From Microbacterium aurugineum (GTDB lineage Bacteria > Actinomycetota > Actinomycetes > Actinomycetales > Microbacteriaceae), in contig NZ_CP078078.1 in the NCBI RefSeq assembly GCF_023101205.1, positions 558,001 through 622,000 of the forward strand: a stretch of DNA of 64,000 bases. The letters are read 5' to 3'. The translations under genes and the position numbers were made by a program. The notes beneath the pieces were generated by a model. That model ran no database searches and was not told the origin of the DNA. It saw only the letters and a program-made list of their open reading frames with translations. Below, in pieces: positions 25,137 to 28,780 of the stretch. The stretch's first letter is position 1. The number at the start of each line of letters is the position of its first letter.

Positions 25137-25201
25137 GCTGACACGGTACTCCCGCGCTCCGGTGCGCGGGCGGAGCGCGCGCCGGGAGATGCGCGGGCCG
25201 G

Positions 25202-25801
25202 TCAGTGTGCCCGGTCCTGCTCCAGCATCATCCGGGCGAGGTTGCGGGCCGAGTCCCATGGTCGATCGAAGGTCTCCATGCCGACCGTGACGATCGCCCC
25301 CTCGTAGAGCAGCATCATGGCCTGCGATATCTTCTCCGGGTTCGAGACGCCCGCTTCCTCGCACAGTTCGGCGAAGAGTTCGAGCAACCAGCTCTTCTGC
25401 CGAGCGACCTCGGGGAAGACGGGGTGGCCGTCGTGGCCGTCGCCGATCTCTGCGCGCGCGTTGATCGCGCTGCACCCCTTCGGGCTGTTGGCGTCCGACC
25501 AGGAGATCGCGGCGTCGAAGATAGCCAGGACGCGATCCGCGCCCGGATCCGGGACGCGAGCGAGGTGCTCGGCGACGTGGGCGCGCCAGCGCGCATCGCG
25601 GTGTTGCAGGTAGGAGACGACCAGGACTTCTTTCGAACCGAACCGGTCGTAGAGCGTCTTCTTCGTGACGCCGGCGGCTTCCGCGATCGTGTCGACTCCG
25701 ACGGCGTGGATGCCGCGTTCGTAGAAGAGCGCTGATGCGGCGTCGAGCACGCGGGTGGCACCCGGTGTGAGGGGAGCGAGCTCAGGGATGGGGACGGCCA
25801 T
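25202..25801 (-). CDS. TetR-family regulator of the divergent DMT exporter
   Basis: 199 residues with an N-terminal TetR helix-turn-helix (about residues 15-60; GIHAVGVDTIAEAAGVTKKT, then YDRFGSKEVLV). The ATG lies seven bases after TATACT on its strand, which fits a leaderless transcript. The start codon itself overlaps the -35 region of the divergent exporter promoter. It likely represses both genes from the palindrome between them. Confidence 0.9.
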   Translation of the reverse strand: MAVPIPELAPLTPGATRVLDAASALFYERGIHAVGVDTIAEAAGVTKKTLYDRFGSKEVLVVSYLQHRDARWRAHVAEHLARVPDPGADRVLAIFDAAISWSDANSPKGCSAINARAEIGDGHDGHPVFPEVARQKSWLLELFAELCEEAGVSNPEKISQAMMLLYEGAIVTVGMETFDRPWDSARNLARMMLEQDRAH

Positions 25802-25828
25802 GACACCGAGTATACCAACCTGTATAGT
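25800..25828 (+). promoter_or_regulatory. Promoter and TetR operator of the DMT exporter gene
   Basis: ATGACA (25800-25805), 17-base spacer, TATAGT (25823-25828), then seven bases to the GTG start. An inverted repeat TATAC-N6-GTATA (25811-25826) covers the spacer and -10, a good repressor site. The opposite strand has TATACT at the same place for the TetR gene. Confidence 0.7.
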
Positions 25829-25835
25829 CGAGCAG

Positions 25836-26804
25836 GTGAGTAAACAGATCGGTATACTTCACATCGGTGTGACGGTCGCGGCCTCCGTGGCGTTCGTCGT
25901 GACCTGGAGCTCCGGCTTCCTCGTGCCCGCGCTCGCCGCGGTGGAAGTCTCGCCGTTGACACTGCTGGTGTGGAGGTTCGTGCCTCTCGCTGTGATCCTG
26001 TTGGCCGTGGTCGGGTTCACCGGTGCGGCACGGGGTGTCTCCGCGGCCGATGTGAGGCGTCAGGCGCTCATCGGCCTGTTCGCCCAGTTCGGCTATTGCG
26101 TCGCCGTCTACGGAGCGATCGCCTCCGGTGTCGCTACCGGTACCACTGCCCTGATCGATGCCGTGCAGCCGCTCATCGTCGCGGTCCTCGTCGGCCCACT
26201 GCTCGGGTTGAGGGTGCGCGCGGCGCAGTGGGCCGGACTCCTGGTCGGCGCGGTCGGGGTCCTCCTGATCGTGCGCTCGCAGCTTGACGACTCCGTCGCG
26301 CATCCGGCCGCGCTCCTGTGGCCTGTGACGGCGATGGCCTGCCTCATCATCGGCACGTTCCTCCAGCGTCGGTCCCGACCACGGACGGGCACCCTCGTCG
26401 CCTTGACCATCCACGTGACGGTCACTGCCGCGGTGCTCGTGCCGGTCGCTGCGGCTTTCGAGGCGCTCGCACCGCCGTCATCCGCCTCTTTCTGGCTCGC
26501 CGCCGGATTCGCGGCTGTGTTCCCGACACTTGCGGCGTATGGCTTGTATTGGTGGCTGCTACGTCGGGTTGGCATCACGGCGCTGAACGCCCTGCTCTTC
26601 CTGATCGCGCCGACGACGGCACTCGCGGGTGCCGTCCTTCTCGGTGAGCCGCTGACGATCGTGACGCTCCTCGGCTTCCTCCTCTGCGCGGTGGGCGTGG
26701 CGGCGGTGCTCGTCGGCGAGGCTCGGCCCGCAGGTGCTGTCGATCACGGGTCCGTCCGGGTGAGAATGCGGCCGAGGCGTGGAGCTGGCGAGGCTGCGCG
26801 ATAG
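25836..26804 (+). CDS. DMT/EamA-family transporter
   Basis: 322 residues with about ten membrane helices in two EamA repeats (GFLVPALAAVEVSPLTLLVWR in the first; LNALLFLIAPTTALAGAVLL in the second). Probably exports a metabolite or drug. The GTG at 25836 is selected from its position seven bases after the -10 element (leaderless). It is divergent from a TetR gene, the usual arrangement for an inducible exporter. Confidence 0.88.
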   Translation: MSKQIGILHIGVTVAASVAFVVTWSSGFLVPALAAVEVSPLTLLVWRFVPLAVILLAVVGFTGAARGVSAADVRRQALIGLFAQFGYCVAVYGAIASGVATGTTALIDAVQPLIVAVLVGPLLGLRVRAAQWAGLLVGAVGVLLIVRSQLDDSVAHPAALLWPVTAMACLIIGTFLQRRSRPRTGTLVALTIHVTVTAAVLVPVAAAFEALAPPSSASFWLAAGFAAVFPTLAAYGLYWWLLRRVGITALNALLFLIAPTTALAGAVLLGEPLTIVTLLGFLLCAVGVAAVLVGEARPAGAVDHGSVRVRMRPRRGAGEAAR

Positions 26805-26814
26805 CATCGACTCC

Positions 26815-26853
26815 ATGAACTTCAATCGCTCCGCATGGTGGTGGCTGCGCTAG
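26815..26853 (+). CDS. Tryptophan-rich leader peptide (attenuator) of trpS
   Basis: A 12-residue open frame, MNFNRSAWWWLR, with three consecutive Trp codons and an immediate stop, 92 bases before the first trpS Met codon. Three Trp codons in so short a frame are the signature of ribosome-mediated attenuation: stalling when charged tRNA-Trp is scarce changes the folding of the leader RNA. It is known in actinobacterial trp genes; applied here by analogy. Confidence 0.82.
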   Translation: MNFNRSAWWWLR

Positions 26854-26900
26854 CAGCCGGTTGAAGTGTGTTCACGGGCTGCACGGCAGCTCGTGGCAGC
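26843..26900 (+). promoter_or_regulatory. Alternative hairpins of the trpS attenuator
   Basis: GGCTGC (26843-26848) can pair with GCAGCC (26853-26858) across the leader stop codon. A second GGCTGC (26877-26882) can pair with either of two GCAGC copies (26886-26890, 26896-26900). The first stem begins within the last Trp codon, so a stalled ribosome would prevent it. Such mutually exclusive pairings suit an attenuator; I did not compute energies. Confidence 0.55.
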
Positions 26901-26944
26901 ACGCGAGGACTCCGTGTGGCTCCCTATCGATGGGAGAAAGAACG

Positions 26945-27013
26945 ATGGAGTCCTTCATTGCGACGGCGCAGCGCTCGGCGGAGGTCGCGGCCGCCGTGGA
27001 CCGACACCCGTAG
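26945..27013 (+). pseudogene. N-terminal 22 codons of trpS, cut off by an in-frame amber codon
   Basis: An ATG at 26945 with a good GGGAGAAAG box starts MESFIATAQRSAEVAAAVD in the same frame as the synthetase, and the peptide resembles the usual extension before the RVLTGERPTGP strand of this TrpRS group. A TAG at 27011-27013 then interrupts it four codons before the GTG at 27023. As given, the full-length protein would need stop readthrough or restart. Confidence 0.75.
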
Positions 27014-27022
27014 CGGTTCCGA

Positions 27023-27988
27023 GTGCTCACGGGGGAGCGGCCGACCGGACCGCTGCACCTGGGGCACTACTTCGGGACGATACGGGAGCGCGTCCGGCTG
27101 CAACAAGCCGGAGTCGAGATGTTTCTCGTGCTCGCCGACTACCAGGTCATCACCGACCGCGATACGACGGACAACGTCCGTGAGAACGTTCACGGTGCCG
27201 TGCTCGACTACCTCGCCGCCGGAATCGACCCGGAGCGCACCACGATCTTCACGCACTCCTCGATCCCTGCTCTGAATCAGCTGCTGCTGCCGTTCCTCAG
27301 TCTCGTCACCGAGGCGGAACTGCACAGGAACCCCACGGTCAAGTCGGAGTACGCGGCGTCCGGTCGCGCGCTGAGCGGGCTGCTGCTGACGTATCCGGTG
27401 CACCAGGCGGCCGACATCCTCTTCTGCAAGGGCAACCTCGTTCCGGTCGGGAAGGACAACCTGCCGCACGTCGAGATGACCCGGGTCATCGCCCGACGGT
27501 TCAACGAGCGCTACGGCGAGCTCTTCCCCGTGCCGGATGCGCTCGTCACGGCGACACCGGAGGTGCCGGGGTTGGACGGACGGAAGATGTCGAAGAGCTA
27601 CGGCAACGCGATCTCCCTCTCGATGACACCGGAGGAGACCGTCGCGGCGATCCGCCGAACACGGACGGATCAGGAACGGCGGATCACGTTCGATCCCGAA
27701 GCGCGTCCCGGTGTCTCCGCATTGCTGACGACGGCTGCGCTGTGCCTGGATGTCACGCCCGCCGAGCTCGCGGACGACGTCGGTGACGCGGGAAGCAACG
27801 CGCTGAAGACCGTGACCGCCGCGGCGGTGAACGACTTCCTGGCGCCGATGCGTGAGCGCCGGCGGAGTCTTGCCGCAGATGGCGAGCTGGTGCGCTCGGT
27901 CCTGCGCCGCGGGAACGAGCGTGCGAATGCGGAGGCGGAAGCGACTTTGGACGAGGTGCGCGAGGCGATGGGGACCGTGTACTGCTGA
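27023..27988 (+). CDS. trpS: Tryptophanyl-tRNA synthetase (second-copy type), N-terminus interrupted
   Basis: Charges tRNA-Trp. From the GTG at 27023 the product would be 321 residues. The class I HIGH-type motif PLHLGHYFG and the KMSKS loop (GRKMSKSYGNA) are intact, as is the adenylate pocket region HQAADILFCKGNLVPVGKD. The normal start is probably the ATG at 26945, but codon 23 of that frame is TAG, so only a restart product lacking 26 residues, including part of the first beta strand, is expected. The Trp-rich leader peptide and attenuator upstream point to induction when tryptophan is short. Such attenuated copies often give resistance to Trp-mimic antibiotics; unproven here. Confidence 0.87.
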   Translation: MLTGERPTGPLHLGHYFGTIRERVRLQQAGVEMFLVLADYQVITDRDTTDNVRENVHGAVLDYLAAGIDPERTTIFTHSSIPALNQLLLPFLSLVTEAELHRNPTVKSEYAASGRALSGLLLTYPVHQAADILFCKGNLVPVGKDNLPHVEMTRVIARRFNERYGELFPVPDALVTATPEVPGLDGRKMSKSYGNAISLSMTPEETVAAIRRTRTDQERRITFDPEARPGVSALLTTAALCLDVTPAELADDVGDAGSNALKTVTAAAVNDFLAPMRERRRSLAADGELVRSVLRRGNERANAEAEATLDEVREAMGTVYC

Positions 27989-28024
27989 GGCGTCGAGTCG
28001 CGAGCCCCGAGCCCCGGGGCGCCG

Positions 28025-28780
28025 CTACGGGCGTCGGGCCTCGATCAGGTGACGCGTCGAATGCGCGACGAACGGTCCGTCGGCCTGGATCCTGTCGTGC
28101 AGGTCACGGAGCCGGTCGAGACTGTTCTCGACCGTGAACCCGGGCACCCACCAGATCACCTTGCGGAGCAGGTAGACCGCCGCGGCGACGTCGTGGATCT
28201 CGATGCGAAGCCTCACGGTTCGCAGATCGATGACCTCGAGCCCCGCAGCCCGTGCGGCGTCGGCCTCGTCGTCGGGGTGGCGTCCGCGGCGCGCTTCCGG
28301 CTGGGGGCCCAGGAAGAACTCGATCAGCTCGAACGCGCTCGCTCGCCCGACGTGCTGTGCGAAGTAGGTTCCGCCCGGCGTCAGCACCCGCGCGATCTCC
28401 GACCACCAGATCGTCGCCGGATGCCTGCTGGTGACGAGGTCGAAGGCTTCATCGCCGAACGGTAGTGGCGGCTCGTCGGGGTCCGCGACGACCACCACAC
28501 CACGGGGATGCAGGAGCCGCGTCGCGCGACGCACGTTCGGTGGCCAGGACTCGGTCGCCACGGCGGCGGGCGGGAAGGCCGCGGCCTCGGCGAGAACCTC
28601 CCCGCCGCCGGTCTGGATGTCGAGCGACGCGGACGCACCGCCGAGGCGCTCGGACAGGAGACGGGCGTAGCCCCACGGAGGTCTCTCCTCGGTGGCTCTT
28701 CCGTCCAGCCAGCCGAAGTCCCATCCGGTCACGTCGGCGGTCCTTCCGGCTTCGATCAGTGCCTCGAAGGAATCGGTCAT
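28025..28780 (-). CDS. SAM-dependent methyltransferase-like protein
   Basis: 251 residues. A class I methyltransferase fold is suggested by SLDIQTGGGEVLAEA (motif I), VVVVADPDEPPLPFGDEAFD (motif II-III) and IARVLTPGGTYFAQHVG (post-III). The substrate cannot be inferred. It converges on trpS, with 36 bases between the stops, including a GCCCCGGGGC palindrome that may terminate transcription. Confidence 0.8.
   Translation of the reverse strand: MTDSFEALIEAGRTADVTGWDFGWLDGRATEERPPWGYARLLSERLGGASASLDIQTGGGEVLAEAAAFPPAAVATESWPPNVRRATRLLHPRGVVVVADPDEPPLPFGDEAFDLVTSRHPATIWWSEIARVLTPGGTYFAQHVGRASAFELIEFFLGPQPEARRGRHPDDEADAARAAGLEVIDLRTVRLRIEIHDVAAAVYLLRKVIWWVPGFTVENSLDRLRDLHDRIQADGPFVAHSTRHLIEARRP

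Follow-up and report, generated by a model that had tools for sequence, protein, structure and literature searches.

A probable nonsense mutation in an auxiliary tryptophanyl-tRNA synthetase gene behind a Trp leader in Microbacterium aurugineum

Auxiliary tryptophanyl-tRNA synthetase (TrpRS) genes are known in Actinobacteria and include the gene for the indolmycin-resistant TrpRS1 of Streptomyces, as described in the part of PMC9437257 drawn on here. The same part of that paper describes TrpRS II of D. radiodurans as interacting with nitric oxide synthase. For S. avermitilis trpS2 and S. lividans trpS, excerpts of PMC1262725 and PMC8079986, respectively, describe candidate attenuators upstream of the gene. 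The trpS gene considered here lies in the window, a 64,000-nucleotide stretch of the M. aurugineum chromosome (contig NZ_CP078078.1), to whose first letter all positions given without a prefix refer. It is comparable to each of these systems in a different respect. Like the gene for Streptomyces TrpRS1, it is an additional TrpRS gene that shares little identity with its canonical counterpart. Like S. avermitilis trpS2 and S. lividans trpS, it has a Trp attenuator candidate upstream. Its nearest solved sequences are those of D. radiodurans TrpRS II (PDB 2a4m and 1yi8), which is the best match among them, with 318 residues aligned. The limits of these likenesses are as follows. The early in-frame stop is a feature of the window copy, the resistance to indolmycin is that of the Streptomyces TrpRS1, and the interaction with nitric oxide synthase is described for the D. 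radiodurans enzyme. The stop itself places the gene beside the young pseudogenes and nonsense alleles of accessory bacterial genes, in which likewise a stop is found in one strain only of an otherwise conserved, dispensable gene. It differs from ordinary nonsense alleles only in that the stop is followed at a short distance by a candidate restart codon.

Read on the forward strand from the ATG at 26945, the trpS frame consists of 22 codons followed by a TAG at 27011-27013 as codon 23 (26945..27013). The first-pass annotation had pointed this out, and the assembled sequence bears it out. The same ATG was said to have a good ribosome binding site, and its Shine-Dalgarno energy of dG -9.5 kcal/mol indeed beats that of 83.5% of 248 predicted genes. 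In-frame starts farther upstream, at 26930 and 26861, were also considered, and both run into the same TAG. After the TAG, the frame is open up to a stop at 27986-27988. The sole ATG, GTG or TTG in frame between the TAG and the HIGH-type motif (HLGH, 27056-27067) is the GTG at 27023, as had been claimed in calling it the only restart site; the next in-frame ATG after it is at 27119. The frame remaining from this GTG (27023..27988, forward strand) has 321 codons. The part behind the stop is a TrpRS. It matches TIGR00233 over positions 1-317 with 242.1 bits, against a cut-off of 176.75, and PF00579 with 173.2 bits, and its translation contains a KMSKS motif (27584-27598) in addition to the HIGH-type one. 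These profiles and motifs are those of the bacterial tryptophanyl-tRNA synthetases.

The genome assembly, 100% complete, consists of one 3.63-Mb contig. A search for a second trpS, which had been suggested at the outset, found a canonical TrpRS gene at C1:1065280-1066245, whose product is 33% identical to that of the window trpS. The window gene is thus the auxiliary one; therefore, the stop spares the other TrpRS, and the cell is not left without a TrpRS. The subtype to which the window gene belongs is patchy in the genus. It was found in 30 of 198 genus genomes (E of 1e-100 or better), and since two or more TrpRS matches occur in every one of the 30, the subtype is taken to be dispensable. 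At the level of the order, 164 of 396 genomes have a match at 1e-90. Among the order-level matches listed, the shortest open frame is that of the window, at 324 codons, and the next shortest are of 327 and 332 codons.

Sequence comparison indicates that, at least in some members of the genus, the subtype is mobile, as would suit a gene open to loss. Microbacterium sp. No. 7 (G121) has a 3.9-kb element (loci L152-L159) that contains a trpS with 84% identity to that of the window, together with its Trp leader. The element also encodes IstA and IstB of the IS21 family and has ends of the form TGA...TCA. There are eight full copies of it, identical or nearly so, of which the chromosome has five and two plasmids together have three, and target duplications of 5 or 6 bp were found at five of the eight. 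A second genome (G138, locus L210) has the same order, trpS-istB-istA, with 72% DNA identity to the element of strain No. 7 and with istB split between two frames. These are the two cases with istAB beside trpS among 30 same-genus loci tested with short flanks. No istAB is found in the 400 kb around the window trpS. In another family, a copy 83% identical in protein occurs (G578, loci L215/L246), for which DNA similarity to the element covers the leader and the gene only, and copies at 75.6% are found on two Rhodococcus plasmids (NZ_CP133327.1 and NZ_CP017300.1). These more distant copies show signs of horizontal transfer, judged from their sequences. Our search of the literature for an IS21 element with a passenger gene and an aminoacyl-tRNA synthetase found none, and a search of the Microbacterium sp. 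No. 7 genome report (PMC4675938) turned up no mention of trpS, IS21, a transposase or an insertion.

The first-pass annotation had placed the gene behind a Trp attenuator, and the Trp leader proves to be real and conserved. It is an ORF of 12 codons plus a stop with three consecutive Trp codons (MNFNRSAWWWLR) at 26815..26853 on the forward strand. Across the genus, at least two Trp codons are present in all 28 leaders translated, and they are adjacent in 27 of them. Not counted among these 28 are L030 and L031, the most distant loci, which both show WWW leaders as well. An RNAalifold consensus of the 28 leaders contains two helices. Helix 1:2 (26843..26858) pairs GGCTGC at 26843-26848 with GCAGCC at 26853-26858; in the alignment, it spans the stop of the leader, just past the Trp codons. 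Helix 3:4 (26873..26895) is of 10 bp and strong. A further helix over the trpS Shine-Dalgarno sequence (26920..26936), pairing CTCCC at 26920-26924 with GGGAG at 26932-26936, is weakly supported by a local fold. At least four of the six Shine-Dalgarno bases are paired in 27 of 28 local folds, and shuffled sequences are as stable in 18% of cases on average. A conserved, Trp-rich leader ORF with helices thus stands upstream of trpS, and the conservation supports an attenuator at this place. An Rfam scan of the 64-kb window at gathering cut-offs gave no match, and neither a T-run terminator nor a promoter-terminator consensus was found in 26600-28060. By eye, a pairing of leader segment 3 with the segment before the Shine-Dalgarno sequence can also be seen, which could not be reconciled with a simple on/off model. 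Also by eye, many of the same-genus rows have a TAnnnT-like hexamer about 7-10 bases before the leader ATG (26802-26815 in the window), a position that suggests a leaderless leader peptide.

The region before the leader differs between the window genome and the one other genome of the species used for comparison (G186). A block of ~1.6 kb (25201-26788), holding a TetR-family regulator gene and most of an EamA-family exporter gene, is present in the window genome and absent from G186. It ends 26 bases before the leader ATG, and a TAGCAT hexamer, a candidate -10 element, remains between the block and the leader.

The stop is confined to the window genome among the relatives compared. The corresponding codon is a sense codon in all 29 of the other same-genus copies fetched and in all 29 of the best other loci of the order-level search. 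The expectation that homologues would have a sense codon at 27011-27013 therefore held. The example given for it, Gln, did not fare as well, since the position is variable, the residue differs from copy to copy, and Gln is rare there. In G186, trpS is intact, and its protein is 99% identical to that of the window. One of the 29 same-genus copies (L029, in G136) is a second disrupted copy in the genus, with a frameshift shortly after the HIGH region; its codon at the TAG position was read by eye, as the frame shifts further on. In this copy, the open part of the match begins only at query residue 26, and there is a run of five G nearby.

What the window genome has is an in-frame stop in one strain, in a dispensable gene that is intact in its relatives. 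We consider it probable that a nonsense mutation, young and specific to this strain, has struck an auxiliary trpS behind a Trp leader and left a null or strongly reduced allele. Of the explanations offered in the first-pass annotation, a nonsense mutation that may leave a short product started at the GTG at 27023 is the best supported, the stop being found in the window genome only, the gene being accessory and a canonical trpS being present elsewhere. Translation from the ATG at 26945 would end after 22 codons, and little or no trpS product would be made. Reinitiation, or weak initiation, at GTG 27023 may yield a 321-residue enzyme at a low level, and this enzyme might stay active, as its catalytic core would be kept. 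In either event, the cell would presumably live on its canonical TrpRS.

Whether the short product would be a working enzyme is a question within the nonsense mutation reading. It would require that GTG 27023 serves as a start and that the N-terminal extension before it is unneeded. A structure model of the intact same-species protein, with a mean pLDDT of 89.1, has a helix at residues 2-20 and a first strand at residues 26-31. The GTG corresponds to residue 27, so in the model the extension forms a separate helix, and the first strand would be nearly all kept. Relatives were scanned in a genome collection, in which 79 of 80 loci were readable upstream and one began inside the gene. In the 33 closest loci, from Actinobacteria plus two from Treponema, the frame is open for 32 codons or more ahead of the GTG position. 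In the 46 more distant ones, the nearest start is mostly within 10 codons of it, in favor of an enzyme that can do without the extension. Two order-level relatives from one genus (G256, locus L245, and G350, locus L244) point in the same direction. They are of the same subtype and have no long extension, with ATG starts, chosen by their Shine-Dalgarno sequences, 3 and 8 codons before the GTG position and with open frames of 327 and 332 codons. Against a working short enzyme, an in-frame start is present before the GTG position in every one of the 79 loci, the closest forced one being two codons before it. Homologues that begin at the GTG with no extension at all had been named as a refuting case; none of the 79 has to do so, yet the two order-level relatives come within a few codons of it. 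The short product would also lack conserved residues of the extension, namely Pro22 (19 of 19) and Arg10 and Arg26 (18 of 19 each), as counted on the 19 of 24 aligned genus rows that carry the extension. Finally, the GTG has no recognizable Shine-Dalgarno sequence by a simple energy model. The energy there is dG -2.9 kcal/mol, a strength equaled or surpassed by 66% of 17-mers taken at random from the genome. Little of this is needed where ribosomes reinitiate close behind a stop, and low-level reinitiation at the GTG, 9 bases past the TAG, is possible. Judged from the model, the fold of the short enzyme is plausible, although its dose would be low. On balance, we regard a working short enzyme as doubtful.

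The alternative to a real mutation is an error in the assembled sequence, in which case the strain would carry an intact auxiliary trpS. The intact trpS of G186 speaks for this, as does the low ratio of dN to dS across the rest of the gene. The part of trpS after the stop has a dN of 0.0035 and a dS of 0.0795 between the window and G186, and therefore the frame was under strong constraint until recently. The low ratio would also fit a trpS that is still used by way of the short product, and most of the signal probably predates the stop. To place the stop in context, the predicted genes of G186 in a 400-kb stretch were compared with the window genome. There, 309 of them align over 325 kb at a mean identity of 99.16%, with 2773 substitutions. 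Among the 309, four, trpS included, have a stop in the window genome and three a frameshift. The reverse comparison, of 310 genes, gives a raw count of six stops and five frameshifts in G186. The window trpS is gene-like on both sides of its stop, with a GC3 of 0.78 before and 0.85 after it and with substitutions of 6, 1 and 18 by codon position. Judged by GC3 and by how substitutions fall on the codon positions, the other three stops are of a different nature. Two result from an over-long choice of start, the GC3 before the stop being 0.44 and 0.42 and after it 0.87 and 0.86, and the third is in a wrong-frame ORF, with substitutions of 17, 3 and 3 by codon position. Thus, of the four stops, that of trpS alone sits in a real gene. 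As for the three frameshifts, unusual composition marks the stretch before two of them, and the third concerns 12 codons. About 2.5% of all single-base changes in trpS (79/3123) create a stop; therefore, dozens of stops would be expected among 2773 substitutions if there were no selection. Since disruptions of real genes relative to G186 are so rare in 400 kb, and the genome is a complete single contig, a sequence error is judged less likely than a real mutation. The assembly of the compared stretch is not error-rich, and the mutation is the likelier cause. We put a sequence error down as unlikely.

The first-pass annotation had also raised the idea that the stop is programmed, as an extra regulatory layer. 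The 22-codon ORF would then be a second leader, with controlled reinitiation at GTG 27023, or else the TAG would be read through. In the former case, ribosomes getting past the Trp leader would end at the TAG, and a fraction of them would reinitiate at the GTG, so that this one strain would make a shorter auxiliary TrpRS at a low dose coupled to translation. The 9-base spacing between TAG and GTG would permit it, and trpS already lies downstream of a Trp leader. Against this, a programmed stop should be conserved among relatives, and it is missing from all 29 further genus copies fetched and from all 29 best loci of the order-level search. There is also neither a suppressor for readthrough among the tRNA genes found nor a recognizable ribosome binding site at the restart codon. 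Neither controlled reinitiation nor a regulatory role of the stop finds backing in any relative examined, and we consider a programmed stop, the second-leader version included, very improbable. Amber suppression can be dismissed, as TAG is an ordinary stop here, terminating 32 of the 248 genes predicted in 400 kb, and none of the 45 tRNA genes found with the Rfam tRNA model has a CTA anticodon according to ARAGORN (30 + 15 read).

Most likely, then, the stop in the window trpS is a loss-of-function mutation of the ordinary kind and not a new control device. The case is a caution in that a stop near the start of a gene with a vital function looks dramatic, whereas here the canonical enzyme is present and the relatives examined are intact. 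The finding of trpS with its Trp leader on a multicopy transposon of the IS21 family shows a possible route for the spread of auxiliary synthetases. If the short product of the M. aurugineum gene is made and active, the strain would offer a natural experiment on the need for the N-terminal extension in this TrpRS group.
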